From assembly GCA_903837255.1 (NCBI GenBank), contig CAILTZ010000162.1:1-22196 (forward strand): a stretch of 22,196 nucleotides of DNA. Direction: 5' to 3'. Positions 4,966 through 21,800 of this stretch are shown piece by piece. Under the pieces are notes generated by a model. It did no database searches. It had not been told where the DNA came from and was given only the letters and a program-made list of their open reading frames with translations. Numbering within the stretch: position 1 is the first letter of the stretch; each line of letters opens with the position of its first letter. The position numbers and the translations under genes are program-made. Source of the DNA: an uncultured Pirellula sp. (GTDB lineage Bacteria > Planctomycetota > Planctomycetia > Pirellulales > Pirellulaceae).

Positions 4966-5039
4966 GAGAGCCCTCCTGGCGATTAGCAAAACTACTCACC
5001 AGGACGACTCTGGATTCTCAAAAAAAGCTCCGACTGGCG

Positions 5040-5067
5040 ATGACAAATCGTCGCGATTCTCTACAAT
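5040..5067 (+). promoter_or_regulatory. Predicted sigma70-type promoter of the nuo operon
   Basis: ATGACA (5040-5045, 5 of 6 to TTGACA) and TACAAT (5062-5067, 5 of 6 to TATAAT) are separated by 16 bp, which places transcription start near 5074. This is the best promoter match I see in the 245-bp gap before nuoA. It lies immediately upstream of the palindromic operator at 5077-5102, so a bound repressor would cover the start site. The pairing with the operator strengthens the call; no experimental start is known to me. Confidence 0.5.
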
Positions 5068-5073
5068 ACGTGG

Positions 5074-5210
5074 ATTGACTTTGTGAAATTTTTCACAAAG
5101 TCGAGAGCCCTCCGGATCGAAGATGACCGGTCGGCCCTGGGGTTTGCTCAGAAACGTATTGAAGATTCTTTACACGAGATCGTATTGCAAGCTGCGTTGG
5201 AGGTGTCCTG
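5074..5210 (+). other. Predicted 5' leader of the nuo mRNA
   Basis: About 137 bases separate the predicted transcription start from the nuoA GTG. The first part carries the Rex-type palindrome, and the last part carries a strong ribosome binding site, GGAGG at 5199-5203, seven bases before the start. I see no known riboswitch, uORF with a good ribosome site, or intrinsic terminator in it. The boundaries depend on the promoter prediction. Confidence 0.35.
5077..5102. promoter_or_regulatory. Rex-type redox operator upstream of nuoA
   Basis: A perfect inverted repeat has two 12-bp arms (GACTTTGTGAAA and its complement) around a central TT. Its core TTGTGAAATTTTTCACAA (5081-5098) fits the Rex operator consensus TTGTGAA-N4-TTCACAA in all 14 defined positions. 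Rex is a winged-helix, Rossmann-fold dimer that binds this site when NAD+ is high and leaves it when NADH binds; in Streptomyces coelicolor it represses the nuo operon. Here the site starts about 3 bases after the predicted transcription start, a position suited to repression. The match is seen directly; the identity of the bound protein is inferred, and no rex gene lies in the window. Confidence 0.8.
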
Positions 5211-5591
5211 GTGGTCGCTCACTTGCCCATCCTTGTCTATCTGATTGCCGTCCTGGGGTTCGCTGCCGTCTCGCTGCTGCTGCCCCACGTGGTCGCACCC
5301 AAACGGCCGACCAAAATCAAAGACATGCCCTACGAGTCGGGGATGGACCCGGTCGGTGATGCTCGAAAACCTTTCGACATCAAATTCTATCTGACTGCAA
5401 TCCTGTTCCTGGTCTTCGACATTGAACTGCTGTTCCTCTATCCATGGGCCGTATCACTTCTGGCACCCGATGGTGTTCCAGAAGCGTTCCGGCCTGCTGT
5501 CTTGGCTGTCTTGATGGTCCTTCTTGCAACCCTGGGCTTGGCCTACTGGGTTGCTTACCGCAAAGGAGTCTTCGATTGGCGACGCAAATAA
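5211..5591 (+). CDS. nuoA: NADH-quinone oxidoreductase subunit A (NuoA)
   Basis: This small membrane subunit of complex I (126 residues, normal length) is the ND3/Nqo7 homologue and contributes to the quinone-site and proton-path region at the junction of the two arms. Three membrane helices are visible at about residues 3-25, 58-80 and 94-115. The diagnostic loop [15 protein letters not shown] (41-55) leads into helix 2 with [21 protein letters not shown], including the conserved acidic pair D70 and E72. The GTG start at 5211 is chosen for the GGAGG ribosome site seven bases upstream and for the full-length N-terminus. It is first in the nuo operon, and its end overlaps nuoB by 16 bases. Confidence 0.95.
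5563..5568 (+). promoter_or_regulatory. Ribosome binding site that fixes the nuoB TTG start
   Basis: AAGGAG lies inside the 3' end of nuoA, seven bases before an in-frame TTG at 5576. The nuoB frame has no ATG between here and the conserved N-terminal region that would leave a normal protein. The ATG at 5444 would add 44 residues encoded by out-of-frame nuoA sequence. Confidence 0.65.
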
Positions 5592-6178
5592 ACAAACAAC
5601 TTGGGGATAACGTATTCCTATCGACCGTTGATGCGGCGGCTTCTTGGGCTAGGGCCAACAGTCTTTGGCCGATGCCCTTTGCAACGGCTTGTTGCGGCAT
5701 CGAGCTCATGAGCGCTGCGGCATCCAAGCACGACTTGTCTCGCTTTGGGAGCGAGGTGATGCGATTTACCCCTCGGCAGTGCGATCTGATGATTGTCGCC
5801 GGCCGCGTGGTGATGAAGATGATCCCGGTGCTCCAACGCATTTGGCTTCAGATGCCCGAACCGAAATGGTGCATCTCGATGGGGGCTTGTGCCTGCACTG
5901 GCGGGGTCTTTGACACCTACGCTGTCGTCCAGGGAATCGATCGATTCCTCCCTGTGGACATCTACGTCCCGGGCTGTCCGCCACGTCCGGAACAATTGAT
6001 CAAGGCGATCATGGACCTTCAAGAGAAAATCAAGAAGACCGGAACCTACAACGCTCGCGAGTTCCAGTTGCGGATCCTGCCCGATGGGCCTAATCGTTTC
6101 GACGAGGATGAGTTGGTCCGTATCCGTGAGCGAAACGGATTCAAACTCGAAGATCCCAAATACGATCCGATCCACTAA
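5576..6178 (+). CDS. nuoB: NADH-quinone oxidoreductase subunit B (NuoB)
   Basis: NuoB (PSST/Nqo6) is a peripheral-arm subunit that holds Fe-S cluster N2, the last electron carrier before quinone. The 4Fe-4S ligands are visible as the tandem cysteines C39-C40 in TACCGIE, C105 in GACACTGG and C134 in VPGCPPRPE (numbered from the TTG). The block [17 protein letters not shown] is typical of the family. I choose the TTG at 5576, preceded by AAGGAG, which gives 200 residues, within the usual range. This start overlaps the end of nuoA by 16 bases and suggests translational coupling. The tail after about residue 160 is hydrophilic and more variable. C107, two residues after the third ligand, is an extra cysteine. 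The identity is secure; the start is probable. Confidence 0.95.
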
Positions 6179-6196: not shown

Positions 6197-6700
6197 ATGG
6201 CCGAAACAACGAACGTCAAAGAACACCTCGAGTCCAAGCTTACGGGTGTATCGCTGGCTTGGTCGGAGTACCGCTCCCAGAGGCGTGTCAGTGTTCCCTC
6301 GTCGAGCATTGAAGCGGCCCTTCGAGCTCTCCGCGATGCGGGCATGGATCAACTGATCGATATCACGGCGGTGGATATGCTTGAATATCCAGGGGCCTCG
6401 GATCGCTTCGAGGTCGTCTATCTGTTGCTCAACACGACCAGTGGCGAGCGTCTGACGGTCAAAACGCACCTGAATGAACCGGATCTGAAACTCCCGTCGG
6501 CTTACCCGATTTGGATTGGTGCCGATTGGCCCGAGCGAGAAGTCTACGACATGTTCGGCATCATTTTCGAAGGCCATCCGAACTTCAAGCGATTGCTCTT
6601 GCCCGATGCTTTCGAATCGTTCCCGCTTCGCAAGGACTATCCGGTCAAAGGCCGGGGCGAGCGACACAACTTCCCCATCATCACCCGCGCGGAGAGCTAA
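6197..6700 (+). CDS. nuoC: NADH-quinone oxidoreductase subunit C (NuoC)
   Basis: This is the 30-kDa (Nqo5) peripheral-arm subunit of complex I. It carries no cofactor and packs against NuoD near the quinone pocket. The 167-residue product contains the family signature near its C-terminus: [19 protein letters not shown], then [14 protein letters not shown] and [15 protein letters not shown]. It is a stand-alone gene, not the NuoCD fusion of enterobacteria. The ATG at 6197 has TTGGAG eight bases upstream and lies 18 bases after the nuoB stop; nuoD follows five bases after its TAA. Confidence 0.95.
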
Positions 6701-6705
6701 ATCAG

Positions 6706-7926
6706 ATGCCATTGGACCTGATCGATTCGCCAGACCTGGACGCCGGATACCGCGAAGGGCTCTGGACGCTGAATTTTGGACCACAGCACCCGGCCACGCA
6801 TACCACGCTTCGCTTGGTCCTGCAGCTCGACGGTGAGATGGTCATCTCGGCCGAACCCGATATCGGGTTTCTCCACAGCGGTTTTGAAAAGCTCGCTGAG
6901 GTGCTCGACTACAATCAATACGTGACGATCGTCGACCGGATGAACTACATCTCGCCGCTTGCCAACGAGATCGCATGGCACCATGCGGTCGAGGGCCTGC
7001 TGGGGATCGATCTAACACCGCGTTGCAAGTACATCCGCACGATCTTTGCCGAGCTGATGCGGATCCACGATCACTTGCTGTGCACGGGCACATGCGTCCT
7101 GGACCTGGGTGGCGCGACGGCGTTTATGTACGCCTTCAATGAGCGTGAAAAGATCTACGAGATCTGCGAGCGAGCCAGCGGCCAGCGTTTCCATACCAGC
7201 TATACCCGCGTCGGTGGACTGCTCTACGATGTGACCGATGACTGGATCAAGATGGTGCGGGATTTCTGCAAGACGTTCCCACAAGCCTATCGAGACTTTG
7301 CCGGCCTGGTGATGAAGAACCGAATCTTCGTCGAACGCACGCGTGGTGTCGGGGTCTTGAGCAAACAGGATGCGATCGCTGGTGGTGCGACCGGTCCCGT
7401 GGCTCGTGCCAGCGGTGTCGAGCGCGACCTGCGTCGCGATGAGCCTTATCTGGCCTATGATGATCTGGATTTCGACGTTTGCTGCGCCCAAGGTGGCGAT
7501 TGCTACGCTCGCTTCCAAGTCCGCATGATGGAGATGCTCGAGAGCTTGAAGATCATCGAACAAGCCGTCGAGAATCTTCCCTCTGGACCTGTCTTTATCT
7601 CAGGGACCGGGAAAGAAGGTTTGCCGGACAAGACCGAGGTGTACAGAAGCATCGAAGGCTTGATCCACCACTTCGAAAACATCATGCCCAATCGTCAGAT
7701 GCCTTCTCCGAAGGAATCGTTTTACGGAGCGACCGAGTCCCCCAACGGCGAACTGGGCTATTACATCGTCTCGGACGGTGACTTCAAAGCCTACCGCGCC
7801 CGGACCCGGCCACCTTCCCTGCTTCATTTTTCTCTGTTTAACCGCATGATCCAAGGCTGCATGCTCAGCGACGTTGCCGCTGTGCTCGGTAGCATCAACA
7901 TCATCGCTGCGGAGTTGGATCGATGA
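6706..7926 (+). CDS. nuoD: NADH-quinone oxidoreductase subunit D (NuoD)
   Basis: NuoD is the 49-kDa (Nqo4) peripheral-arm subunit, related to the large subunit of NiFe hydrogenases; with NuoB it forms the quinone pocket. The 406-residue product starts at ATG 6706, with GGAGAG nine bases upstream. An upstream in-frame ATG at 6511 lies inside nuoC and is not credible. The quinone-loop motif appears as NFGPQHPATHTTLRL (residues 23-37) with both histidines, and the quinone-binding tyrosine is probably Y81 in MNYISPL. Further signatures are GFLHSGFEKLAE, RCKYIRTIFAELMRI and SYTRVGGL. Small departures are THT where THG is usual and a C-terminal SIN where SLD or SID is usual, before the family-type ELDR end. 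Its stop overlaps the nuoE start (ATGA). Confidence 0.95.
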   Translation: MPLDLIDSPDLDAGYREGLWTLNFGPQHPATHTTLRLVLQLDGEMVISAEPDIGFLHSGFEKLAEVLDYNQYVTIVDRMNYISPLANEIAWHHAVEGLLGIDLTPRCKYIRTIFAELMRIHDHLLCTGTCVLDLGGATAFMYAFNEREKIYEICERASGQRFHTSYTRVGGLLYDVTDDWIKMVRDFCKTFPQAYRDFAGLVMKNRIFVERTRGVGVLSKQDAIAGGATGPVARASGVERDLRRDEPYLAYDDLDFDVCCAQGGDCYARFQVRMMEMLESLKIIEQAVENLPSGPVFISGTGKEGLPDKTEVYRSIEGLIHHFENIMPNRQMPSPKESFYGATESPNGELGYYIVSDGDFKAYRARTRPPSLLHFSLFNRMIQGCMLSDVAAVLGSINIIAAELDR

Positions 7927-8417
7927 GCGAACTGAGCGACAACGCAAAACAAACAATCGCAGAGCATCTGCCTCGTTATCCTAGCAAGCAAGCCGTGACG
8001 TTGCCGGCCCTGCATGTGGTCCAGCAAGAGCGCGGCTGTGTGAGCAACAAAGCGATGGAAGAGATCGCTGCAATCCTGGAACTCTCCCCGGCTCAAATCC
8101 ACGACACCGCGTCGTTCTACGGTTTCTTTCGAACCGAGGACAATCCGCTCGGTCAAAAACGCATTTGGGTCTGCCGCTCACTGCCTTGCATGCTCCGGGG
8201 TGGTGAAGAACTCCTGGCAGCTCTTTGCGAAAAGTACGGTATTGCCCCAGGTGAAACCACCCCTGATGGCAAACTGACGATCGAACTTGCCGAATGCCTA
8301 GGGGCCTGCGACGGTGCTCCGTGCATCCTGCTCGAAGACGAACTTCATCTGCGATGCAGTCTCGAAGATGTCGAGCGCATCGCCAACGAGCCCTCACCTC
8401 CAACCAGGAAAGTCTGA
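7923..8417 (+). CDS. nuoE: NADH-quinone oxidoreductase subunit E (NuoE)
   Basis: NuoE is the 24-kDa (Nqo2) subunit of the NADH dehydrogenase module, a thioredoxin-fold protein with 2Fe-2S cluster N1a beside the flavin. The 164-residue product has the four ligands in the expected pattern: C84 and C89 in VCRSLPC, C125 and C129 in ECLGACDGAPC. The N-terminal helical part carries DTASFYGFF, equivalent to the family's ATFY segment. The ATG at 7923 overlaps the nuoD stop as ATGA and has GGAG eight bases before it, so translation is probably coupled to nuoD. Its presence, together with nuoF and nuoG, shows that this complex I takes NADH rather than ferredoxin or F420. Confidence 0.95.
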   Translation: MSELSDNAKQTIAEHLPRYPSKQAVTLPALHVVQQERGCVSNKAMEEIAAILELSPAQIHDTASFYGFFRTEDNPLGQKRIWVCRSLPCMLRGGEELLAALCEKYGIAPGETTPDGKLTIELAECLGACDGAPCILLEDELHLRCSLEDVERIANEPSPPTRKV

Positions 8418-8431
8418 AGCGAGGCTTAAGC

Positions 8432-9766
8432 ATGAGTCAAACTGAATTCAAACCCGTATTGCTTGGGCGAGTCGGCAGACCCGATAGCCAATCGCTCGCT
8501 TCCTACCGAGCAGACGGCGGCTACGAAGCCTTGGCCAAAGCCCTGAAAATGGCCAACACCGAAGTGATCGATGTGGTCAAAAATTCGGGCCTTCGCGGTC
8601 GCGGTGGTGCAGGCTTTCCCACGGGCCTCAAGTGGACCTTTCTGCCCAAGGATGTCAATGGTCCGATCTATTTGTGCATCAACGGCGATGAGAGCGAACC
8701 TGGTACGTTCAACAATCGAGTCCTGATCGAGGAAGACCCACACCAGGTTCTCGAAGGGATCGTCATCAGTAGCTTTGCAACCCGCTCAACGACCGCTTAC
8801 TTTTATCTTCGCTACGAATACGGACGATGCTATCGAACGCTCCAAAAAGCAGTCGATGAGATGTATGCGAACAATCTGCTGGGCAAGAACATCCTCGGCT
8901 CAGGCTACGACTTGGATATCTACCTGCACCGCGGTGCATGCGCGTATATCTGCGGTGAAGAAACCGGATTGATCGAGAGCCTCGAAGGCAAACGAGCTTG
9001 GCCTCGGATCAAACCACCGTTTCCGGCAATCGAAGGTGCGTTTCGTCGACCCACGGTCGTCAACAACGTCGAAACGATGGCTTGCATCCCCCACATACTC
9101 AAACACGGGACCGAGTGGTTCCAGTCGATGGGTATCCCCAAAGATCCCAACAACCCGCGGGATGCAGGTTCGTATGGGCCCAAGCTCTACTGCATCAGCG
9201 GCCATGTCAACAAGCCGGGTCTGGTCGAACTCCCGATGGGAATCACCGCGCGCGATTTGATCGACAAGCATGGTGGAGGTGTCTGGAAAGGTCGCCAAGC
9301 CAAGGCCGTGATCCCCGGTGGTTTGAGCATGGGTTTCATGACCAATGCCGAGCTCGATACTCCCCTGGACTTCAATGGCCCTGGTCGCGTCGGATGCCTG
9401 GGGCTCGGGACCGCTGCGGTCGTCGTCATCGATGACCACACGAGCATGGTCGACGTCCTTTACAACGCTTGCCGATTCTTTGCCCACGAATCCTGCGGCC
9501 AGTGCACGCCGTGCCGCGAAGGGACCGCTTGGTCGACAAAAATCCTCGAGCGAATCCGCGATGGCCGTGGCAAACTCAGCGATATCGATTTGCTGCTCGA
9601 GATCGCCAACTCGATCGGTACGATTCCTGGCACGACCATATGTGGACTTGCCGATGGTGCCGCTTGGCCGATCAAAACAGGGATCAACAAGTTCCGCGGC
9701 GAGTTTGAAGAATACATCAAGAGCGGTCGCCGTAGCCAGAGCCATGCTCTTGCCGGTGCGCACTAA
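8432..9766 (+). CDS. nuoF: NADH-quinone oxidoreductase subunit F (NuoF), NADH- and FMN-binding
   Basis: NuoF is the 51-kDa (Nqo1) catalytic entry subunit: it binds NADH and FMN, oxidises NADH and hands electrons to cluster N3. The 444-residue product has the FMN/NADH glycine-rich segment LRGRGGAGFPTGLKW (54-68), GDESEPGTF (85-93) and YICGEETGLIESLEG (172-186). The N3 4Fe-4S ligands are C355, C358 and C361 in SCGQCTPCREG, plus C404 in TICGLADG. I choose ATG 8432 with GAGG upstream; the in-frame ATG at 8294 would lie inside nuoE. Its N-terminus matches normal NuoF length. It lies 14 bases after nuoE and 40 bases before nuoG. Confidence 0.96.
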   Translation: MSQTEFKPVLLGRVGRPDSQSLASYRADGGYEALAKALKMANTEVIDVVKNSGLRGRGGAGFPTGLKWTFLPKDVNGPIYLCINGDESEPGTFNNRVLIEEDPHQVLEGIVISSFATRSTTAYFYLRYEYGRCYRTLQKAVDEMYANNLLGKNILGSGYDLDIYLHRGACAYICGEETGLIESLEGKRAWPRIKPPFPAIEGAFRRPTVVNNVETMACIPHILKHGTEWFQSMGIPKDPNNPRDAGSYGPKLYCISGHVNKPGLVELPMGITARDLIDKHGGGVWKGRQAKAVIPGGLSMGFMTNAELDTPLDFNGPGRVGCLGLGTAAVVVIDDHTSMVDVLYNACRFFAHESCGQCTPCREGTAWSTKILERIRDGRGKLSDIDLLLEIANSIGTIPGTTICGLADGAAWPIKTGINKFRGEFEEYIKSGRRSQSHALAGAH

Positions 9767-9806
9767 CCAGAGCATTTGAACAACACTTTTTGGGAAAGCA
9801 ATAAAA

Positions 9807-11510
9807 GTGGTCAAAGTCAAAGTCAACGATATCGAAGTCGATGCAGATCCGAAAGACAACTGCATCCTAGCGGCTAGAAAAGCGGGGTTTGAAATCCCTC
9901 ACTACTGCTGGCATGAATCTCTTTCGGTCGTGGCCTCCTGCCGGATGTGTCTGGTCGAAGTCGGCGAAACCAAACCCGATGGGACCGTGGCTATGGGCCC
10001 GAAACTCGTCCCGGGTTGCCAAACTCCGATCAAGGAAGGGACGGTCATCCGCACCGAATCGGCCAAGGTAAAAACCACGCAGCAGATGACGCTCGAACTG
10101 CTGCTGCTCAACCACCCCCTGGATTGCTCGATCTGCGACCAAGCTGGTGAGTGCTACCTGCAGGATTACACGTACAAGTACGGCAAGGCCCACAGCCGAC
10201 TCGACGAGCCCAAGATTCAGCGGGAGGACAAGTACCACATCGGGGAGCAAATCGCTCTGTTTACCGACCGATGCGTCATGTGCACTCGCTGCGTTCGCTT
10301 CACCCGCGAAATCAGCGGTACGTCCGAACTCCAAGTCGTCGCGCGAGGGTCTCACGAAGAGATCGATGTGTTCCCAGAGACACCCTGCAACAACAAACTC
10401 GCTGGCAATGTCGTGGACCTTTGCCCCGTCGGAGCTCTTTGCAGCAAAGACTTTCTCTACAAGAAACGGGTTTGGTGGCTCAAGCATGCCGAGAGCGTCT
10501 GCACAGGTTGCTCGACAGGTTGCAGCATCCACGTCGACCAGAACGAAAACAAAGTCTATCGATTGCGACCTCGCGAGAACCCACAGGCCCAAGGCCACTT
10601 CATGTGCGACGAAGGCCGCTACGGGTTCAAGTACATCCACGATGATCGACGATTGAAGTATCCAAGGCTCAAGAACCCATCGGCCAATTCCAACACTGCG
10701 GTCGCCTCGAGCCGGCCATCGGACTTGTCGTTTGCCGACCCATGGCCCACGGTCTTGTCCGAAGCCCGCAAGCGAATTCAAACCGCGATTCAAAACGATC
10801 CGTCCGGGTTCGTCGCCGTTCTGTCCCCGCAGATGACTCTCGAAGAAGCCTACCTGCTGGCTTCCTACATCAAAGGCATCGACCCTCGAACCAAACTGAC
10901 CCTCGGACCGGTCCCGGTCTCAGGAAGCGATGACCTGTATCCCAAGGGTCCCAAGGGAGAGCCCCCTGCTGCCGGGAAGGTGAAGTTTACGATTCGGGCC
11001 GAAAAGTGCCCCAACAGACTCGGCGTCGAAGCCGTCCTGCGACACTTCGAACGCTCGGTCATCCTGGCCGAATCGCTCGGAAAATCCTCCGCAAGCGCCT
11101 GGTACGTTGTCGGTGGGTACAGCGCCGGTTGGGTCAATGAAAAGCTGGACCAAGCCGTTGGCACCCCGTCGTTGCTGATCGTCCAAGACATCTTCCCCTC
11201 GCCACTAAGCGAACGAGCGGACATTGTTCTGGCGGCAGGATCTTTCGCAGAACGCGAAGGAACCTATGTCAACCATGCTGGTTTAGCACAAGCAGCCCAT
11301 GCGTCGATCAGGCCACCCGAAGAGGCCCGCGCAGACGGTCGTATCCTGATGGAACTCGCTGGCCGCACCGGGCTTTTCAACGCCATGGCACTGCGCAAGG
11401 AAATCGGGACCAAAATTGCTGAGCTCTCTGCGATTGCCGTCGGGGAGCTCGGTGATTACGGCGTACGGCTTGCCAAATACGCAAATCAACCCGTTGCCGC
11501 CAAAAGCTGA
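9807..11510 (+). CDS. nuoG: NADH-quinone oxidoreductase subunit G (NuoG), short form
   Basis: NuoG (75 kDa/Nqo3) carries the Fe-S chain between flavin and NuoI. All N-terminal cluster sites are visible: 2Fe-2S N1b (C34, C45, C48, C71), the His-Cys N5 site (H103, C107, C110, C116) and N4 (C156, C159, C162, C206). The off-path N7 site is also present as C232-X2-C235-X3-C239-X27-C267, the same spacing as in Thermus thermophilus. At 567 residues the protein is clearly shorter than the 680-900 usual for the family. The loss falls in the catalytically inactive molybdopterin-oxidoreductase-like C-terminal domain, of which ERADIVLAAGSFAEREGTY remains. The start is GTG 9807 with GGGAAAG eight bases upstream; there is no in-frame ATG alternative near the conserved N-terminus. 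Confidence 0.93.
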   Translation: MVKVKVNDIEVDADPKDNCILAARKAGFEIPHYCWHESLSVVASCRMCLVEVGETKPDGTVAMGPKLVPGCQTPIKEGTVIRTESAKVKTTQQMTLELLLLNHPLDCSICDQAGECYLQDYTYKYGKAHSRLDEPKIQREDKYHIGEQIALFTDRCVMCTRCVRFTREISGTSELQVVARGSHEEIDVFPETPCNNKLAGNVVDLCPVGALCSKDFLYKKRVWWLKHAESVCTGCSTGCSIHVDQNENKVYRLRPRENPQAQGHFMCDEGRYGFKYIHDDRRLKYPRLKNPSANSNTAVASSRPSDLSFADPWPTVLSEARKRIQTAIQNDPSGFVAVLSPQMTLEEAYLLASYIKGIDPRTKLTLGPVPVSGSDDLYPKGPKGEPPAAGKVKFTIRAEKCPNRLGVEAVLRHFERSVILAESLGKSSASAWYVVGGYSAGWVNEKLDQAVGTPSLLIVQDIFPSPLSERADIVLAAGSFAEREGTYVNHAGLAQAAHASIRPPEEARADGRILMELAGRTGLFNAMALRKEIGTKIAELSAIAVGELGDYGVRLAKYANQPVAAKS

Positions 11511-11533
11511 TTGCACTCGGAGAAACATAAAGA

Positions 11534-12724
11534 ATGATCAATAGTCTACTCGAGTACTGGCCGGTGCTTTGGCCCACCCTCGCAGCCATCGCCGTGATCC
11601 TAGCGGTCGTCCCATTCCTGGGTCTATACATGACCTTTATCGAACGCAAAGTCGCAGCTTACGTTCAAGACCGCGTGGGTCCTAACCGCGTCGGCCCCTT
11701 CGGGCTTTTCCAAGCTGTCGCCGACGGAATCAAGATCTTCCTCAAGGAGCAACTGATTCCAGACCACGTCTACACGGCGTTGTACTTCATCGCTCCTGCG
11801 TTCAGTCTGATCACGGCCATGTTCGCTCTGGTGGTCATGCCCTTCGGACCGGTTGCTACCGATTATGCAGGTGGCTTTAGGTTCATGGTTGCCCCTGGGA
11901 TCGATATCGGCATCCTGATGATGCTCGCGATCAGTTCCCTCTCGGCTTACGGGATCATCGTCGGCGGATGGGCTTCGAACAACAAGTACTCGATCTACGG
12001 CGCGATCCGCTCGTGTGCTCAGTTCATCAGCTACGAAATTCCCCTGGGGCTTTCCATCCTAGGTGTGATCGCGATTGCAGGCTCGCTGAACATCGAGCGA
12101 ATCGTCGCTGTTCAGTCGGCAAGCATCCTCGATTGGAACGTCTTCTGGCAACCTGTGGCCATGCTGGTGTTCTTCACGAGCGCTTTGGCAGAGACCAACC
12201 GATTGCCGTTCGACCTTCCCGAATGCGAACAAGAGCTCGTCGGTGGTTTTCATACCGAGTACAGCGGGATCAAGTTTGTGCTTTACTTCTTGGCAGAATA
12301 CACCCACATCGTCACGGTCAGCTTCCTGACAGCTCTGCTGTTCTTGGGCGGCTGGCATTTTCCGGGACTCCCAGGACCTTCAGGTGCTTCGACCCTCGTG
12401 CTGCTTTTGGGATTGCTCGTTCTGCTAGTCAAGGTGTCGTTGGTGGTGATGGTAATCATTTTGCTGCGATGGTCACTCCCGCGATTCCGATTCGACCAGC
12501 TGATGGGTCTAGCTTGGAAAGGGCTCATTCCACTTGCTCTTGCCAACCTAGTGGGTGTTGCTGTCGTGCTAACCCTGGGACTCCCAAAACATCTTCTGAT
12601 CGCCACGGCGGTTCTTCCCGTCCTGGCTGCTTACTACAGCGCCACGAAGTTCAATGCTTCCATGGCGGATGAAAACATCTCGAAAAAAGGCCTCTCACCA
12701 CGAGGAGCGGTGTCTTATGAGTGA
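11534..12724 (+). CDS. nuoH: NADH-quinone oxidoreductase subunit H (NuoH)
   Basis: NuoH (ND1/Nqo8) is the membrane subunit that forms much of the quinone chamber and links the two arms. The 396-residue product shows its most conserved loops: FIERKVAAYVQDRVGPNRVG (35-54) and AETNRLPFDLPE with EQELVGGFHTEYSG (219-244), the acidic-rich loop facing the quinone site. About eight or nine hydrophobic segments are visible. It is longer than many bacterial versions (about 320-350), partly through a hydrophilic C-terminal tail ending ISKKGLSPRGAVSYE. The ATG at 11534 has only a weak ribosome site, GGAG at 11519-11522, eleven bases away. The end overlaps the nuoI start by eight bases. Confidence 0.95.
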   Translation: MINSLLEYWPVLWPTLAAIAVILAVVPFLGLYMTFIERKVAAYVQDRVGPNRVGPFGLFQAVADGIKIFLKEQLIPDHVYTALYFIAPAFSLITAMFALVVMPFGPVATDYAGGFRFMVAPGIDIGILMMLAISSLSAYGIIVGGWASNNKYSIYGAIRSCAQFISYEIPLGLSILGVIAIAGSLNIERIVAVQSASILDWNVFWQPVAMLVFFTSALAETNRLPFDLPECEQELVGGFHTEYSGIKFVLYFLAEYTHIVTVSFLTALLFLGGWHFPGLPGPSGASTLVLLLGLLVLLVKVSLVVMVIILLRWSLPRFRFDQLMGLAWKGLIPLALANLVGVAVVLTLGLPKHLLIATAVLPVLAAYYSATKFNASMADENISKKGLSPRGAVSYE

Positions 12725-13349
12725 GACTCAGAACAAACCGGCTAAAAAGAAAACGGTCAAGTGGGGCGATGCCCCCAAACTCAGCGTCCTCGACGCGCTG
12801 TACCTGCCCGCGATCGCTTCTGGACTGGCCACCGCGATCAAGCACGCGGTCTCCGGCAAACCGACCACTAGGCAGTACCCTGAAGTCGAGCCCGAGATCC
12901 CTCCAAATTATCGCGGTGTCCACCGACTCAATCGCGATGAAGCCGGACGGGTCAAGTGCGTGGCTTGCTACATGTGCCAAACGGCTTGCCCTGCCAATTG
13001 CATCGAGATCATCGCAGCACCTGCACCCAAGGATGATCCTCACTGGAAAGACCGGGACAAGTTCCCTGCGACCTTTACGATCGACGAACTGCGGTGCATC
13101 TACTGCGGGATGTGCGAGGAAGCTTGCCCAGTCGATGCGATCGAACTGACGAGCATCTACGACCTGACGGGTATGACCCGCGAAGAGATGATCTTCGACA
13201 AAGAAAAATTGCTGTCGGTGTTTGACGAGACGGTCAAGACGGGTCGAGACCCGGTCCGCACCAATCGAGGAAAACTAGGCCCGGCGTCGGAACTTTCACC
13301 GACTGCCAAGGACGCTCCGCCCCCCCCAGGGCGAGGCAAGTCGGGCTGA
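12717..13349 (+). CDS. nuoI: NADH-quinone oxidoreductase subunit I (NuoI), 2x[4Fe-4S]
   Basis: NuoI (TYKY/Nqo9) is the ferredoxin-like subunit carrying clusters N6a and N6b, which pass electrons to N2 in NuoB. The two ligand sets are C81, C84, C87 and C91 (CVACYMCQTACP) and C127, C130, C133 and C137 (CIYCGMCEEACP), both with the proline that marks 8Fe ferredoxins. I choose ATG 12717, with GAGGAG nine bases upstream, giving 210 residues; an ATG at 12654 inside nuoH would add a nonsense leader. The product is longer than the usual 160-180 because of a Lys-rich N-terminus and a low-complexity Pro/Gly-rich C-terminus. The tail is encoded across a run of eight cytosines (13320-13327). An 80-bp gap follows before nuoJ. 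Confidence 0.95.
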   Translation: MSETQNKPAKKKTVKWGDAPKLSVLDALYLPAIASGLATAIKHAVSGKPTTRQYPEVEPEIPPNYRGVHRLNRDEAGRVKCVACYMCQTACPANCIEIIAAPAPKDDPHWKDRDKFPATFTIDELRCIYCGMCEEACPVDAIELTSIYDLTGMTREEMIFDKEKLLSVFDETVKTGRDPVRTNRGKLGPASELSPTAKDAPPPPGRGKSG

Positions 13350-13367
13350 TCCTAAATACCCTCAGAA

Positions 13368-13397
13368 TTGGCAACATCCAACAGCAAAATCAATTAT
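13368..13397 (+). promoter_or_regulatory. Weak candidate internal promoter between nuoI and nuoJ
   Basis: The nuoI-nuoJ gap (80 bp) is the longest break in the operon. TTGGCA (13368-13373, 5 of 6 to TTGACA) and AATTAT (13392-13397, 4 of 6 to TATAAT) are 18 bp apart in locally AT-rich sequence. No palindrome or terminator is seen in the gap. It could give extra transcription of the membrane-arm genes, but a match of this quality is expected often by chance. Confidence 0.2.
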
Positions 13398-13429
13398 TCT
13401 ATGAAGCGAAATAACGTAAGAGGCGAACT

Positions 13430-14251
13430 GTGAACCCCTTGTCCATTGATCCAAAGAACCTACCGCTGGTAAACGGCGAGCAGTTCCAAGGCAATCTCTC
13501 GCAGATCTTGTTGCTGGTGATTCTATTAGGAACCGCAGCCTATTTGCTTTTGCAACACGGTTTGGTGAAATCCAAAATGATGGCCTGGGCTGGCGGAGGC
13601 CTCTTTGCGTTCGCGGCCCTGATGGCCTTCATGTCGATCCCGATGCAACTCGAATCGGTCGTCAGAATTTGCTTCAGCATCCTAGCTGTCGCTGGCGGGG
13701 TGGCTTTCATCACCGCGCGAGAACCTGTCCATGCAGCACTGGGTTTTGCAACCGCAGTCCTCTCCGCATGCGGCGTGATGTTCATGCAATCGGCTTACTT
13801 CATCGCCGCAGCCACCATGATCGTTTACGCAGGTGCCACCATAATCATTTTCTTGTTCGTTCTGATGTTCGCTCAGAAGTCCAACCTGCAATGGTACGAT
13901 GTTCAGTTGATCCGCCCAGTTATCGCAGCGGGTGTGGCAACATCCTTGCTATTTGCGATCGCTTGGAGCGTCTCTGAGCCTGGAGAAATTCTCCCGATTA
14001 AGCTCGATCTGACTCGCCCCTATAGCCTAGCCGCACCCGGCAGCGCGCCCGGTCAAGCACTCCCGCCAGTTCCCGAATCGACGATGAGCCAAGCTCAACT
14101 ATCGGAGTTTGTCCCAGCCAAAACCTCTGGACTGGGACGCTCGATGTTTACGGACTATCTGCTCGCCATCGAATTGGCTGGCACGGTCCTTCTGGTCGCG
14201 ACGATCGGAGCCATCGTCTTGGCACAGAACCCAGAAAGGGACCCGTCGTGA
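13430..14251 (+). CDS. nuoJ: NADH-quinone oxidoreductase subunit J (NuoJ) with N-terminal two-helix extension
   Basis: NuoJ (ND6/Nqo10) is a membrane subunit whose third helix takes part in coupling quinone reduction to pumping. The family core begins only near residue 76: ICFSILAVAGGVAFITAREP (80-99), then the signature IVYAGATIIIFLFVLMF and the C-terminal FTDYLLAIELAGTVLLVATI. Before it are about 75 extra residues with two predicted membrane helices (about 24-43 and 50-70), and between the last two core helices lies a long Pro-rich loop, so the protein has 273 residues against a usual 165-200. The GTG at 13430 has AAGAGG six bases upstream. Its stop overlaps the nuoK start (GTGA). The identity is secure; the extension is real if the GTG start is right. 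Confidence 0.9.
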   Translation: MNPLSIDPKNLPLVNGEQFQGNLSQILLLVILLGTAAYLLLQHGLVKSKMMAWAGGGLFAFAALMAFMSIPMQLESVVRICFSILAVAGGVAFITAREPVHAALGFATAVLSACGVMFMQSAYFIAAATMIVYAGATIIIFLFVLMFAQKSNLQWYDVQLIRPVIAAGVATSLLFAIAWSVSEPGEILPIKLDLTRPYSLAAPGSAPGQALPPVPESTMSQAQLSEFVPAKTSGLGRSMFTDYLLAIELAGTVLLVATIGAIVLAQNPERDPS

Positions 14252-14751
14252 ACCATTCCGAAGTCCAAAACTTGCTGCTCCTAGGAGGCATCCTGTTTGC
14301 CATCGGGCTCATCGGGTTCCTAACCCGACGCTCGATCATCCTGATGTTTCTGTCCTTGGAAACCATGCTCTCTGGTGTGAGCATCAACCTGATCGCTTTT
14401 TCTAGGTTCCATCAAAACTACCAAGGCCAGATCCTATCGGTCATGGTCCTGACAATCGCGGCTTGCGAAGCTGCCATCGCCCTTGCGATGGTCGTCTCGC
14501 TCTACCGCCGCAAAGCAACCCTGGATGTTCAAGCTTGGGATGAGCTCAGCGAGACGATCCTTCCGAAGGAACCCGAAGGTGATTACATCGGAATGGAGCA
14601 CCTAGAGACCTATCCGAAATTGTCCCCCGCCGGTTTGGATCCGCGAGATCAGCCGATGCCGAGCTCTTTTCAAGCCAACCCCAATCAACCAACGTCGGAA
14701 CTAGATCACAAAACCTCTCCCATTGTGTCGGAGGTAAATCAGCGTGGCTAA
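14248..14751 (+). CDS. nuoK: NADH-quinone oxidoreductase subunit K (NuoK) with C-terminal tail
   Basis: NuoK (ND4L/Nqo11) is a three-helix antiporter-like subunit of the proton-pumping arm. Residues 1-98 are an ordinary NuoK, with the two membrane glutamates needed for proton transfer at E38 (FLSLETML) and E74 (AACEAAIALAM). The family normally ends near residue 100. Here a hydrophilic Pro/Glu/Asn-rich tail of about 68 residues follows (DELSETILPKEPEGDY onward), with no predicted membrane segment, giving 167 residues. The GTG at 14248 overlaps the nuoJ stop and has AAAGGGA just upstream. The tail's last codons hold the nuoL ribosome site and start, so it may partly serve coupling. Confidence 0.93.
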   Translation: MNHSEVQNLLLLGGILFAIGLIGFLTRRSIILMFLSLETMLSGVSINLIAFSRFHQNYQGQILSVMVLTIAACEAAIALAMVVSLYRRKATLDVQAWDELSETILPKEPEGDYIGMEHLETYPKLSPAGLDPRDQPMPSSFQANPNQPTSELDHKTSPIVSEVNQRG

Positions 14752-16711
14752 CTTGGATTCTATCATTTGGATCGTACCGATCGCTCCCCTGATCGGTTGC
14801 ATCGTCTGTGCGGTCATGTCGTTTCGTGGTGACAAGCACAACGCGCATGTGCCTGCGATCCTGTCGCTAGTCGTTTCGGCACTCTGCGCTCTGCTAGTAC
14901 TCGTGCAGTGGGATTCTCAAGCAACGAGCGCTGGCTACGAAATTGCAGAGGGTTATCGCTACCTGCAAATTGGTAACGTCAACCTCAACCTCTCGTTGAG
15001 GGTCGACACGCTCTGCTTGACGCTCCTGTCGGTTGTCACCTCGATTTCGGCGATGATCGCGATTTACTCCAAAGGCTACATGCATGACGACCCGGGGTAT
15101 GCGCGTTATTTTGCAGTTTTCTGCGGGTTCGTCTTCTCGATGACGATGTTGGTTCTTTCCCACAACCTGCTGATGATGTATGCGTTTTGGGAAGGTGTTG
15201 GAACTTGCAGTTACCTGCTGATCGGCTATTGGTTCCGAAAGCCTTCGGCGGCCCGAGCAGCGACCAAAGCATTCTTGGTCAATCGCGTCGCAGATACTGC
15301 GTTCCTCTTCGGAATCCTGATGCTCGCCTACGCGATCGGACATACCGATGTTGGAACTACCCAAAGCTGGTTCTCGCGGCTGGACTTCCAAAACATTTTC
15401 AATGCCGCTCCGGTGTTGGCAGAAAAGCATTCTGGATTGCTATCGCTTATCGCACTGCTGCTGATGATCGGGGCGATTGGAAAATCGGCTCAGTTCCCAT
15501 TCCACGTATGGTTGCCTGATGCGATGGAGGGCCCTACGCCGGTCTCGGCATTGATCCACGCGGCGACGATGGTTACCGCGGGCGTTTACCTGATGGCTCG
15601 CTTGGCGCCCCTAACGGAGCTGACCCCCTCGGTTCTGATCACCGTCGCTTGGCTCGGTGGAATCACCTCGTTGATCGCTGCGGTCATGGCCCTTTACCAG
15701 GACGATCTGAAACGCGTTTTGGCTTACTCGACCGTCAGCCAACTCGGGTATCTGTTCATGGCCTTGGGAGCCGGTGCAGTCAAGGACCTGATGACCGTTG
15801 CAGTCGTCGCGGCGATGTTCCACTTGGTCACTCACGCGTTTTTCAAAGCATTGCTTTTCCTTTCGGCGGGCAACGTGATGCATGCGATGGGAGATGTCAT
15901 CGACACGCGAGAGTTTTCCGGTCTGAAAAGGGTACTGCCCAAGACCAATATTCTTTTTGCCATCGGAGCCGCAGCCCTTGCCGGCGTTCCACTGCTTGCA
16001 GGTTTCTTCAGCAAAGACAGCGTGCTGGCTGTGCTCTTGGATGCAAGCTCCGACACCATGATCGGTTCGCACTTTGCGGCCTTGCTAGGAATCGGTTTTC
16101 TGACGGCACTGCTCACAGCGATTTACACGTCTAAGGCCTACTTCAGGACCTTCCATGGCCCTGAAAAAATCCCAGCGGCAGCAGGTCATCATCCCCATGA
16201 TGCTTCGAACGTGATGCTAGCTCCGATGGCCGTTTTAGCCGTCGGTGCACTGGTCGCCGGGGGGCTTTTGGGACCGACCGGTAAGATCTCCGAGTACCTC
16301 TCCAAGACGCCGCTCTTGCATCCTCACGAACATGCCGAGCCGATGTGGCTGTTGGTTGCCTCGTCGATCATCGCCCTGGCTGGGATCTTTGTCGGCTACA
16401 CGATAAGTCAAAAACCAGCACCCGCCGCCGGGCTCCTCAAGAGCCTTGCGGATTTCGGTCGCAATCGACTCTACATCGATTGGCTTTATAACGTCGCGAT
16501 CGTCCAGCCGATGCTCTCGATCGCTCAGTTTCTGGAATGGATCGATACGAACATCATCGGCGCGGTTACCGATGCCATAGCAGGACTCCCCAGGCTCTTG
16601 GGTATGGCCGGACAGCGGCTCCAAACCGGACGAGTCCCCGCCTATAGCCTGCTGACGGCTTTAGGAATCGCAGCGGTTGCTATTTGGATTGTCACGAGAG
16701 CAAGTTGGTAG
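14744..16711 (+). CDS. nuoL: NADH-quinone oxidoreductase subunit L (NuoL)
   Basis: NuoL (ND5/Nqo12) is the distal Mrp-antiporter-like proton pump of complex I. The 655-residue product has the TM5 glutamate (E150 in FWEGVGTCSYLLIG), the TM7 lysine (K247 in IGKSAQFPFHVWLPDAMEG) and the intact EGPTPVSALIHAATMV stretch. The C-terminal part keeps the long lateral-helix region and a final membrane anchor (about 632-651, LLTALGIAAVAIWIVTRASW at the very end). The GTG at 14744 has an excellent GGAGGT eight bases upstream, and the start overlaps the nuoK stop by eight bases. nuoM starts two bases after its TAG. Confidence 0.96.
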   Translation: MANLDSIIWIVPIAPLIGCIVCAVMSFRGDKHNAHVPAILSLVVSALCALLVLVQWDSQATSAGYEIAEGYRYLQIGNVNLNLSLRVDTLCLTLLSVVTSISAMIAIYSKGYMHDDPGYARYFAVFCGFVFSMTMLVLSHNLLMMYAFWEGVGTCSYLLIGYWFRKPSAARAATKAFLVNRVADTAFLFGILMLAYAIGHTDVGTTQSWFSRLDFQNIFNAAPVLAEKHSGLLSLIALLLMIGAIGKSAQFPFHVWLPDAMEGPTPVSALIHAATMVTAGVYLMARLAPLTELTPSVLITVAWLGGITSLIAAVMALYQDDLKRVLAYSTVSQLGYLFMALGAGAVKDLMTVAVVAAMFHLVTHAFFKALLFLSAGNVMHAMGDVIDTREFSGLKRVLPKTNILFAIGAAALAGVPLLAGFFSKDSVLAVLLDASSDTMIGSHFAALLGIGFLTALLTAIYTSKAYFRTFHGPEKIPAAAGHHPHDASNVMLAPMAVLAVGALVAGGLLGPTGKISEYLSKTPLLHPHEHAEPMWLLVASSIIALAGIFVGYTISQKPAPAAGLLKSLADFGRNRLYIDWLYNVAIVQPMLSIAQFLEWIDTNIIGAVTDAIAGLPRLLGMAGQRLQTGRVPAYSLLTALGIAAVAIWIVTRASW

Positions 16712-16713
16712 TC

Positions 16714-18363
16714 ATGAGCATTTTGATCCCCTTACTGATCCTTGTTCCCCTGGCCTGTGCCTTGGTGATCTTCTTTTCCGGACCGCGCGCCAAAGCGATG
16801 GCCCCATTTGGAATCCTCGCCGCAGGACTGACGCTGCTTCTGAGCATCGGGCTGTGCTTCGAGGTCTACCAAACCCCTTCGAAACTCACCGGAGTGCCCG
16901 GGACGATTGAACCGACAATTGAACCCAAAGTGACGTTCATCTCCGAGTCGCTGCGTTTCGTCCTGCCGATTTCAGTAGGCGGTCAACCGATCGATTGGCA
17001 GCTCTCCTACGGTGCCGATGGAATCTCTGCCCTGATGGTCCTGCTCACCGGTATCGTCGGTTTCTTTACCGTCTGGTTGGCACACAGCCAAATCAAAACC
17101 CGAACCGAGACATACATCGCGCTACTGCTCGTGACGATCTCGATGCTCATGGGCGTATTCCTGGCCATGGATCTGCTTTCGTTCTATATTTTCTTCGAAG
17201 CGGTCCTGATCCCTCTGATCCTCTTGATCCATGGTTGGGGCGATGGAAAGAACCCGCAAGCCGCCTCGAAGCGATTCTTGCTCTTTACGTTGGCCGGTAG
17301 CATCCCGATGGTCGTCGGACTGATTTCTTTGGCCATGTCGCCACTTGCCAACGGCCAACCATCGACCGTCGCATTCAGCGAACTTTCCAAGATAGCATCC
17401 CAAACCGTTGCGAGCGGTATTCCGATAGGGACCAAAGACACATGGGCTGTCTGGCTGCTGCTCTTGGGATTCGGGATCAAGCTCGCCATTCTTCCGCTCC
17501 ATACCTGGCTCCCGATGACCTACGCGGCAGCTCACCCAAACACGACCTCGCTGGTCGCCTCGGTGGTGGCCAAGCTCGGTCTTTATGGCATCCTCAGGAT
17601 CGTGATACCATTGACTCCTGAAGCCCTTTCGATCGAGGCTCAGATGATCATCGGGACCCTAGGGGCGATAGTGATCGTCTATGGAGCGCTTGTAGCTCTT
17701 GCGAAAGACAACTTGCGTGAGGTCCTGGCCTTCAGCTCCCTGTCCCACGTGGGCTTTATCACCCTGGGGCTTATGAGCCTGACGCGAGAAGGGCTCGGGG
17801 GCGCCGCGCTGCAAATGTTCAATCACGGACTGATCACCGCTGCGATGTTCTGGATCCTCTCGATGCTCGAACAACGACACGGTCCGATCAGCCTCAAGAG
17901 CGAGGACCGCGGACTGGCGGCCCAGTATCCCAAGCTAGCCGTGTTGCTGGTGTTCTTTACCTTGGCAGGTGCCGGCCTCCCAGGCCTCAATGGCTTCGTG
18001 GGCGAATTGCTGACCATGTCGGGCATGATGCGAGTCTGTGCGACCCTCGTGGCGATCGCCGTTTTAGGAACCGTCCTTGGAGCGTGGTATGGCCTGCGTA
18101 TCGTCCAACGATTGCTCTTTGGTAGCGATGGCCCAAGGCTCCATGCACACCATCGGCCGTTGACGGGTGCTGACCTGAGCGTCAATGAATGGGTTCCCCT
18201 CGTGACGGTCGCCATCCTGTGTCTTTACATTGGTCTGTTCCCGATGCGTACGATGAAGCTCTTTCAGCCCGATACCGACCGATTGGCCAGGGTGGTCGAA
18301 CCGGTTTCCAAGCAGGTGCATCGCGACATGGATACCCTAGCGGTTCAACCAACGAACCCTTAG
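16714..18363 (+). CDS. nuoM: NADH-quinone oxidoreductase subunit M (NuoM)
   Basis: NuoM (ND4/Nqo13) is the middle antiporter-like proton pump. The 549-residue product has about 14 hydrophobic segments, the TM5 glutamate (E162 in IFFEAVLIPLILLI) and the TM7 lysine (K256 in GFGIKLAILPLHTWLP). The TM8 lysine is present in VVAKLGLYGILR, and NLREVLAFSSLSHVGF matches the family. Between TM7 and TM8 the usual WLPDAHTEAPTAGS is replaced by WLPMTYAAAHPNTTS. I choose ATG 16714, two bases after nuoL, over an in-frame TTG at 16684, because the protein then begins directly with its first membrane helix. The upstream ribosome site is weak, so coupling to nuoL is likely. Confidence 0.94.
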   Translation: MSILIPLLILVPLACALVIFFSGPRAKAMAPFGILAAGLTLLLSIGLCFEVYQTPSKLTGVPGTIEPTIEPKVTFISESLRFVLPISVGGQPIDWQLSYGADGISALMVLLTGIVGFFTVWLAHSQIKTRTETYIALLLVTISMLMGVFLAMDLLSFYIFFEAVLIPLILLIHGWGDGKNPQAASKRFLLFTLAGSIPMVVGLISLAMSPLANGQPSTVAFSELSKIASQTVASGIPIGTKDTWAVWLLLLGFGIKLAILPLHTWLPMTYAAAHPNTTSLVASVVAKLGLYGILRIVIPLTPEALSIEAQMIIGTLGAIVIVYGALVALAKDNLREVLAFSSLSHVGFITLGLMSLTREGLGGAALQMFNHGLITAAMFWILSMLEQRHGPISLKSEDRGLAAQYPKLAVLLVFFTLAGAGLPGLNGFVGELLTMSGMMRVCATLVAIAVLGTVLGAWYGLRIVQRLLFGSDGPRLHAHHRPLTGADLSVNEWVPLVTVAILCLYIGLFPMRTMKLFQPDTDRLARVVEPVSKQVHRDMDTLAVQPTNP

Positions 18364-18412
18364 TTCAACAGCAAATCGAAATCAGCAAAACGAAAATCAG
18401 CGAGATCTAATC

Positions 18413-19864
18413 GTGGACTTGATTCAAATCACCAAAGCCGCCGTCGGTCACCTGACCCCCGAGATCCTGCTCCTCATCGGCGGGACCTTGGTCATGTGCG
18501 CCTCGGTGCTGACCGGCAAGCCCCTGCGGCAGGATCTTCATACGGAGCGAAACAACTTCGCGGTTGCCTCGCTGCTGTGCTTGCTCGCAGCCATGGCAGT
18601 TCGCTACTGGCAAGGCGTTCCAACTGTCTCTGATGAAGACATCGGCCTGTTCCGCTTCGATGCTTCGGCCCTAGCTGCCGAACGACTGACGTTTCTGGGC
18701 GGTCTGATCCTGATCCTCATGTCCTGGTCCACGGCACCCAAGGGTCGATTGGCAGAGTACTACGGCTGCTTGCTGATTATCCTGGCGGCAATTCCAATCG
18801 TCGGTGCCTCGAACGATCTGGTTTCGATGTTTCTAGGATTGGAGCTTGTGAGCATCCCGACCTACATCCTTTTGGGGATCGTCAAGTCGGACAACTCGGG
18901 TGCCGAGGCGACCCTCAAGTACTTCCTACTGAGCGCATTTGCTTCGTGCTTTTTCCTCTTGGGAATTAGCTACCTGTACGGATTCTGTGGCTCGACGAAT
19001 CTGTCGGTCATCCAAGGATCGTTTGGCGAGGGCAAGCGACTGATGGCCTTGGGATTGCTCCTAGCGATCTGCGGATTGTCGTTTCGAATCACTGCCGTTC
19101 CGTTCCATTTTTATGCTCCCGATGTCTTCGAGGGAACCAGCGTGACGATGGCCGGAGCGATGAGTTACCTACCCAAGGTGGCAGGTTTCGTCGCACTGAT
19201 TCGGTTGATTGGGGCCGGCACGCTGAGCCCGGGTGCAAGTGCTGTGGTGATCCCGGTTCTGCTCGGGTGTGCGGCTCTGACGATGTGCGTTGGAAACCTG
19301 CTGGCGCTCGCACAGAACAATCTTCGACGCATGATGGCCTACTCGAGCGTCGCGCATACGGGTTATCTGCTCTTGGCATTTGTTGCATTGATTCGCCAAG
19401 ACGCCAGTCCTGGCGTGATGTTCTCCTACTTGGCCGCTTACGCAGCCATGACCTTAGGCCTGTTTGCATGCCTTGGTGAGATCGAGGCAGCCGGGGGCAA
19501 GTCCCATTTGATTGGGGATCTGGCCGGCATGTTTCAACGTAGACCTGCCGCTTCGATCGGGCTAACCGTTGCCCTCATCAGCTTGATCGGTTTGCCGTTT
19601 ACGGCTGGTTTTTGGGCCAAGTTCATGGTGTTTGTCGGGACTGTGGCAGACCGGCGGGTCGATTCGATCAGCATGCTCATGGGTGCCTTGATGGCCATCA
19701 ACGCAGTGATTGCAGCCGGATACTACTGGCGGATCCTCAGCACGATCTACTCCAAGAGCGAGTCGAATGTGCCATTGCGAGTGTTTCGACCGAGTCTATT
19801 TTTCGCTTACACGATTTGCACCGTTTTGACGATTCTTTGGTTCTTTGTCCCATCGGCCATGTAA
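18413..19864 (+). CDS. nuoN: NADH-quinone oxidoreductase subunit N (NuoN)
   Basis: NuoN (ND2/Nqo14) is the proximal antiporter-like proton pump. The 483-residue, all-membrane product has the TM5 glutamate (E144 in FLGLELVSIPTYILLGI), VPFHFYAPDVFEGTS, the YLPKVAGFV lysine and the late PFTAGFWAKFMVF lysine. At the TM7 position where E. coli and most relatives have Lys in FKL, this protein has R225 (LSFRITAVPFHF). GTG 18413 is chosen because the conserved TM1 follows at once; the ribosome site is poor. A 49-bp gap with two imperfect GAAATCAGC-type repeats separates it from nuoM. Its TAA overlaps the next gene's ATG. Confidence 0.94.
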   Translation: MDLIQITKAAVGHLTPEILLLIGGTLVMCASVLTGKPLRQDLHTERNNFAVASLLCLLAAMAVRYWQGVPTVSDEDIGLFRFDASALAAERLTFLGGLILILMSWSTAPKGRLAEYYGCLLIILAAIPIVGASNDLVSMFLGLELVSIPTYILLGIVKSDNSGAEATLKYFLLSAFASCFFLLGISYLYGFCGSTNLSVIQGSFGEGKRLMALGLLLAICGLSFRITAVPFHFYAPDVFEGTSVTMAGAMSYLPKVAGFVALIRLIGAGTLSPGASAVVIPVLLGCAALTMCVGNLLALAQNNLRRMMAYSSVAHTGYLLLAFVALIRQDASPGVMFSYLAAYAAMTLGLFACLGEIEAAGGKSHLIGDLAGMFQRRPAASIGLTVALISLIGLPFTAGFWAKFMVFVGTVADRRVDSISMLMGALMAINAVIAAGYYWRILSTIYSKSESNVPLRVFRPSLFFAYTICTVLTILWFFVPSAM

Positions 19865-21702: not shown

Positions 21703-21738
21703 ATCTCCCTTTTTGAACGTTCCAGTCGCGTTGCCCGT

Positions 21739-21800
21739 ATTGAGCTGCCAGCATTGTAGTCGCTGCCAGCATTGAGCTGCCAGCATTGTAGTCGCTGGCG
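21739..21800. repeat. Tandem 32-bp repeat, about 1.9 copies
   Basis: Unit 1 at 21739-21770 and unit 2 at 21771-21800 are identical over 27 bases, differing in the last three of unit 2. Within them the 12-mer CTGCCAGCATTG occurs three times (21745, 21763, 21777), separated alternately by TAGTCG and AG. The array lies 36 bases upstream of the chosen start of the minus-strand membrane protein. Confidence 0.85.

Follow-up and report, generated by a model that had tools for sequence, protein, structure and literature searches.

A putative Rex operator ahead of the nuoA-N operon in a Pirellula-type planctomycete and its recurrence in genomes with rex

Rex is a repressor that senses NADH/NAD+, and Gyan (2006) reportedly described a Rex-Ndh regulatory loop in Bacillus subtilis. 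In Streptomyces avermitilis, Rex directly binds nuo and represses the nuoA1-N1 operon, and the Rex footprint at cydA1 extends from -3 to +25 (excerpts of PMC5355995). Characterised members of the family are released by NADH, as stated in the available parts of PMC5355995 and PMC8836258. The original prediction for the DNA studied here had cited Streptomyces coelicolor as an organism in which Rex control of nuo is known. Binding of Rex to nuo is on record for S. avermitilis, but S. coelicolor is named in the excerpts of PMC5355995 for cyd and rex-hem.

The DNA analysed is a stretch of 22,196 nucleotides, which will be referred to as the window. It contains a 26-bp palindrome, GACTTTGTGAAATTTTTCACAAAGTC (5077-5102), in which 12 of 13 pairs are complementary with the central T/T as the sole failure; no other 26-bp stretch of the whole window reaches at least 12 of 13 pairs. 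The palindrome had been predicted to fit the Rex consensus at every defined position, and this was borne out, since its core shows 0 mismatches to TTGTGAANNNNTTCACAA (14/14). Under a first-order Markov model, chance alone would give 9e-5 exact cores for the window, and 0.02 for a sequence of 4.64 Mb. The assembly to which the window belongs consists of 912 contigs with 4.64 Mb in total and is 83% complete; it contains a single copy of the exact 14-base core and likewise a single one of the shorter form TTGTGA-N6-TCACAA.

As also predicted, the palindrome follows a good promoter and precedes nuoA (Table 1). The promoter, ATGACA-N16-TACAAT (5040-5067), was the sole one obtained in a consensus scan of positions 4900-5400, for which shuffles give 0.3 each. 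From the -10 box of this consensus match to the operator core, which begins 13 bp behind it, the distance is 12-13 bp in all 15 named Pirellula-type loci as well. The operon downstream comprises the full nuoA-N set according to Pfam families and gene order. Among the matches listed, the closest named relatives of its NuoA are mostly labelled Pirellula sp., the nearest four sharing 91-92% identity. Two further open reading frames of the window, at 25-4965 (+, 1646 aa) and 20860-21813 (-, 317 aa), gave no hit to Pfam or NCBIfam models at an E value of 0.001.

Table 1: Positions of the putative operator, the promoter elements and the nuo genes in the window.
Feature	Position	Strand	Basis
nuo promoter, -35 hexamer ATGACA	5040..5045	+	consensus scan; NTGACA with 16-bp spacer in 15/15 named Pirellula-type loci (L200-L214)
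nuo promoter, -10 hexamer TACAAT	5062..5067	+	consensus scan; putative transcription start near 5074
26-bp palindrome, putative Rex operator with extended arms	5077..5102	+	sequence; conserved in relatives; would span about +4 to +29
18-bp core	5081..5098	+	14/14 matches to TTGTGAA-N4-TTCACAA
GGAGG, likely nuoA ribosome-binding site	5199..5203	+	read from sequence
nuoA, opening the operon, with the listed GTG start	5211..5591	+	Pfam PF00507
open frame containing nuoB, true start inside mechanical ORF	5444..6178	+	Pfam PF01058
nuoC, nuoD, nuoE, nuoF, nuoG, nuoH	6197..12724	+	letters from Pfam family and gene order
nuoI, nuoJ, nuoK, nuoL, nuoM, nuoN	12654..19864	+	letters from Pfam family and gene order

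We consider it very probable that the palindrome is the operator of Rex and that this NADH/NAD+-sensing repressor controls nuoA-N in a Pirellula-type planctomycete. A Rex dimer covering about +4 to +29, counted from a putative start ~7 nt after the -10 box, would block the start or the escape of RNA polymerase at the promoter. Rising NADH would bind the Rossmann domains, Rex would leave the DNA and complex I would be made; by oxidising NADH, complex I would then close a negative feedback loop. The proposed arrangement resembles the nuoA1-N1 ROP of S. avermitilis in its consensus, in the complex I type of the operon, in Rex as the presumed repressor and in a site that overlaps the promoter or lies downstream of it. 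The S. avermitilis nuoA1 site (TTGTGACCTGCTTCACAT) encompasses the -35, whereas the operator in the window follows the -10 box, a position resembling that of the cydA1 footprint (all comparisons as far as the excerpts of PMC5355995 reach). With B. subtilis the window would share the principle of a feedback loop in which the NADH dehydrogenase repressed by Rex itself brings NADH down; the target there is Ndh, unlike complex I here and Na+-NQR in relatives (PMC5355995, in part).

The genome was expected to encode Rex, and a 214-aa protein with winged helix and Rossmann domain was indeed found (G000:C855:1308-1952, minus strand). It exceeds several NCBIfam cut-offs for Rex, the best being NF003995 with 250 bits vs 126, and contains both PF06971 and PF02629. 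Its best solved relative is the Rex of Thermotoga maritima (PDB 5zz5; 7wb3 has the same sequence), to which it aligns nearly end to end over residues 6-212 with an E value of 7.7e-49. Twelve DNA-contact residues are named for the T. maritima protein in the available text of PMC8836258, and nine of them are identical in the Rex of this genome, including Arg48, Gln46, Arg60 and Gly61; the base-reading Lys49 is changed to Arg, Lys43 to Asn and Glu34 to Arg. Among the 30 Rex proteins of the family that were compared (L048-L077; L294-L307), 23 have Lys and seven have Arg at the helix position of Lys49; at the wing position of Arg60, Pro occurs in 23 and Arg in the other seven. In the family sample rex was detected in 100 of 119 genomes. 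A CRP/FNR-family gene is located within ~2 kb of rex in G018, G080, G107, G114, G101, G068, G043, G090, G016 and G030.

Conservation of the site was evaluated in these 119 genomes, which were drawn from a larger group and each searched for NuoA and NqrA. A promoter was counted as carrying the site when at least 10 of 12 positions of TTGTGA-N6-TCACAA matched within 400-450 bp upstream, the chance being ~1.6% per region with equal bases. Upstream regions of nuoA were read in 45 genomes possessing the NuoA type of the window (30 + 15, without G063, where the gene lies at a contig edge), and 36 of these promoters (24/30 + 12/15) carried the site. NqrA was found in 68 of the 119 genomes and rarely beside this NuoA type (G004, G025 and, by fragment, G063). 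The site precedes nqrA in 57 of the 65 promoters read, the partial or edge matches in G113, G079 and G102 being left out; Na+-NQR lineages carry it as well. Among the closest relatives, in which the palindrome should have been kept upstream of nuoA if it mattered, it is present in 4/4 same-genus genomes of the sample (that of the window included) and in 15/15 of the closest named loci. A second kind of nuoA-like gene, represented by five genes that were kept out of the counts, had no near site and yielded one 11/12 match at -545.

Presence of the site was associated with presence of rex. For the joined nuoA and nqrA promoters, the site was found in 87/93 with rex vs 6/17 without (Fisher p=2.5e-7, uncorrected for relatedness). 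A second set consisted of named genomes, of which 77 were counted from the best 80 of 572 NuoA matches (the second copies L258 and L260, and L268, were left out). The site occurred in 26 of these 77, namely in 25/28 with rex vs 1/49 without, and after removal of the 15 Pirellula-type loci in 10/13 vs 1/49 (p=3e-8). The two sets overlap, four genomes apparently being shared (L212=G074, L214=G010, L215=G098, L253=G060). Genomes counted as rex-less and siteless include L262, which has a partial Rex match below cut-off, as well as L240 and L247, which have just 78 and 104 bp of upstream sequence. The p values are inflated because relatives are not independent. A NuoA tree of 103 rows (the 77 named and 26 of the 45 family rows) required at least 11 changes of rex and at least 10 of the site but offered only three well-supported independent pairs; in these, rex and site agreed in a mean of 2.4/3 and opposed each other in 0.0, which is not significant.

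Exceptions occurred in both directions. Rex is encoded and the site absent at the nuo promoters of G016, where a half-site is left, G064 and G007 (Rex 34% identical), and at the nqr promoters of G073 (Rex 37% identical, region cut by a contig edge), G070 and G004. Conversely, six promoters have the site in genomes without detected rex, three of them 78-86% complete (G050, G052, G095) and three 96-99% complete (G015, G031, G038). Renewed searching with PF06971 in nine rex-less nuo genomes did not reveal the gene. In the named genomes, rex without the site was observed in L252, L257 and L263, and the site without rex in L278.

The palindrome TGTGA-N6-TCACA is the classic binding motif of CRP. 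Recognition by a CRP/FNR-family regulator would agree with all 10 core bases of that consensus, and CRP/FNR genes are common, being present in 68/119 family genomes. However, their presence is unassociated with the site in the same promoters (55/65 vs 38/45, p=1.0), unlike that of rex. HTH_Crp_2 (PF13545), the sole Crp model run, gave no match at E 1e-5 in G000, G010, G074 and G105, all of which have the site; in G105, a single contig, 45/65 first-look candidates were scored, and in the other three genomes all. Moreover, a position downstream of the -10 box, as seen here, is not where such an activator would sit. A CRP/FNR reader was rejected for the genus of the window on the HTH_Crp_2 search, with G105 partly scored, and the comparison across 119 genomes, and we regard it as highly improbable. 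Some other repressor combining Rex-like specificity with the same phyletic pattern would explain why six promoters keep the site where rex was not detected, but Rex itself is widespread in the family and the site fits its published consensus (PMC5355995, in part). No second candidate turned up, CRP/FNR being the only alternative searched for, and such a repressor appears very unlikely.

Alternatively, the palindrome might fold into a hairpin at the start of the nuo mRNA and act in stability or attenuation, rather than as a protein site. The transcript would open with a 12-bp stem, and the pair flanking the core often switches symmetrically between T/A and A/T among relatives. Nevertheless, TTGTGA and TCACAA are kept as sequence and track the presence of rex, and the distance to the NuoA match varies from -51 to -164 in L200-L214, so we give a purely structural role hardly any credence. 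Returning to Rex, it most likely keeps the main NADH:quinone reductase repressed as long as NADH has not risen, because an exact site, a rex gene, the lack of a detected CRP/FNR protein, the co-occurrence of rex and site, and the site before nqrA in Na+-NQR lineages all point to such a role.

The size of the regulon was assessed by motif searches. The additional sites that the original prediction envisaged ahead of cyd, adh, ldh, ndh or rex were not found with the genome-wide motif at 0-1 mismatch, which degenerate sites would escape. In the window's own genome, 0-2 mismatches gave no second convincing promoter site; the 13 matches with 1-2 mismatches (L005-L017) viewed by eye mostly overlap open frames, the shorter-motif matches L078 and L079 lying outside this view. 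Searching 19 genomes (17 Pirellula-type, 2 rex-less) for the 14-base motif with 0-1 mismatch yielded 18 exact copies, of which 17 are the single nuo sites of the Pirellula-type genomes and the last lies in an open frame (G126), and 22 one-mismatch copies vs 21 for the reversed control pattern, i.e. chance level. None of the 15/23 extra copies inspected was located at a convincing promoter: all 12 that were fetched overlap open frames, and the three of the window's own genome comprise two in open frames and one at a start codon. Autoregulation was sought upstream of 30 rex loci, where no convincing site and one 10/12 match at -261 were observed. Because the one-mismatch copies remain at control level and no convincing site precedes these 30 rex loci, the regulon looks like one operon. 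The usual traits of a global Rex regulon, autoregulation and several promoter targets, are not seen here, and such a regulon was rejected on these searches, within their mismatch limits. This differs from S. avermitilis, whose Rex regulon includes at least 11 targets, rex among them (PMC5355995, in part).

The exact short motif occurred in 0-5 copies per genome in 23 genomes. Sixteen copies outside nuo promoters were inspected: they are located before nqrA in G018, G025, G028 and G103, near the gene of a Rieske-domain protein in G097, four times in G021, and the rest without evident target. The G097 copy (L121, 2001-2018) is an exact short form ~100 bp upstream of the Rieske-domain protein. 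In G021, TTGTGAAACTTTTCACAA or its complement occurs exactly at four further places (L123-L126), each adjoining repeat arrays that look CRISPR-like by their translated repeats. In the genome of the window, the only respiratory candidate is a two-mismatch match (L015, 676-693) 262 bp upstream of an sdhC-like gene named by eye, and a weak Rex-like site (L007, 1501-1518) was noted, by eye, at the start codon of a 505-aa ORF that looks secreted and is divergent to a sucA-like gene.

Rex thus appears to serve the nuo operon alone in the genus of the window, and in sister lineages it appears to serve the operon of whichever main NADH:quinone reductase is employed, be it Nuo or Na+-NQR. The mechanism of a Rex operator is ordinary and the lineage apparently new; what is unusual is that a single target was detected and that it changes with the NADH dehydrogenase employed. 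Among the matches listed from the open-licence literature, which did not extend to the comparative Rex paper of Ravcheev et al. 2012, no paper on regulation of planctomycete nuo or nqr by Rex was found. If our reading holds, the NADH sensor Rex serves planctomycetes almost exclusively to govern how electrons enter respiration, and the operator stays with the function, the main NADH:quinone reductase, when complex I and Na+-NQR are swapped. The long-standing idea that regulation follows physiology and not gene descent would thereby become directly testable.

The leaders of most examined relatives outside the Pirellula type are built differently from that of the window. In 30 other family nuo promoters with the site, a strong promoter match, TTGACC-N17-TA(C/G)GAT, is located farther upstream (score of at least 9 in 25/30 vs 0.8% of shuffles). 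Its -10 box is 41-49 bp from the operator in 19 of the 28 cases with a score of at least 8, and 33-71 bp in the remainder. A T-run, defined as at least 5 T in 7 nt between -19 and -9 of the operator, was present in 28/30 family nuo leaders (control windows 9/237), in 8/8 nuo loci titled Gemmatales and other planctomycetes (1/58) and in 27/57 nqr leaders (32/455), and was absent from all 16 Pirellula-type loci, the window included (12/128). A hairpin ending where the T-run starts, with a stem score of at least 15, was detected in 27/37 nuo leaders vs 12% of shuffles (L274 was too short) and in 25/57 nqr leaders vs 10% of shuffles. Since the 30 nuo leaders with a stem score of at least 13 show 26 different 3′ arm ends, the hairpin is kept as structure and not as sequence. 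The contrast was weaker with a simple folding score, for which mean z was -1.7 for the 30, -2.8 for the eight and -1.8 for the Pirellula type, where no T-run follows the fold. Loci with hairpin and T-run at near-fixed spacing between the nuo promoter and the putative operator are those of L027-L047 and L080-L094 with the site, within the family, and L251, L259, L261, L267, L271, L274, L276 and L278, titled Gemmatales/Gemmataceae and others. A promoter close to the operator without a hairpin was also recognised, by eye, in the relatives G025, G108, L216, L217 and L223. The wing type of Rex does not strictly track leader layout, as L216 and L217 combine Pro with a close promoter, and L271 and L276 combine Arg with a hairpin. 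No consistent promoter was found for nqrA with the nuo promoter model.

A second promoter with its -10 box inside the operator (TGTGA-TATTAT-TCACAA) could be read from the same leaders, as the scan placed the best -10 there in 22/36 family nuo sites. However, the mean score was barely above that of shuffles (7.6 vs 7.2), and the TATTAT-type centre is absent from the Gemmatales sites and from the window.

A more tentative proposal, which we hold to be possible but rather doubtful, is that in most of the examined relatives outside the Pirellula type Rex gates a leader terminator, beyond blocking initiation, as an NADH-controlled roadblock-terminator and thus a bacterial counterpart to the Pol I terminator of hairpin, T-tract and Reb1. 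From a promoter ~45 bp upstream of the operator, the RNA would form the hairpin, followed by a U-tract ~10-17 bases ahead of the operator. With Rex bound immediately downstream, RNA polymerase would be kept on the U-tract and the hairpin could release it; NADH would remove Rex and allow read-through into nuo. The genus of the window would represent a simplified form with the promoter beside the operator and the hairpin absent. In this proposal the relatives' hairpin is a putative terminator. In bacterial termination ~8 nt separate the hairpin from the RNA end (PMC12366685, in part), so a polymerase halted by Rex might not yet have completed the hairpin, unless it pushes forward or backtracks.

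Similar elements are known from other systems. Pol I was stopped 15 bp upstream of the Reb1/Nsi1 roadblock site, inside a T-rich stretch, and the nuo leaders of relatives share with this terminator the order of hairpin, T-rich stretch and bound protein (excerpts of PMC12366685). The Pol I terminator serves eukaryotic 3′-end formation, whereas these leaders are bacterial, lie near the transcript start and would involve a ligand-controlled protein; the window itself, without hairpin and T-run, is unlike this layout. Repressor roadblocks are known from bacteria (PMC10310618, in part), and YtgR, a ligand-controlled repressor, is reported to promote termination of the upstream transcript at its operator at trpRBA of Chlamydia trachomatis (PMC6504234, in part). 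YtgR is iron-dependent, and the excerpted text of PMC6504234 describes no conserved hairpin and T-run before its operator. A leader arranged as hairpin, T-run and Rex operator was not described among the matches listed from the open-licence literature. If functional, this layout would add a repressor-gated terminator to the known modes of bacterial repressors.

Where the operator is gone and the promoter kept (G099, G064, G007, G041 and G044), hairpin and T-run were, by eye, lost in three genomes and kept in two; in G016 both are kept with half an operator. In G044 (L029), which has no rex, a different palindrome, CGCCTTGCGGCTTTTTCCGCAAGGCT, takes the place of the missing operator ~75 bp upstream of nuoA, after the kept hairpin and T-run, and perhaps another regulator took over there.
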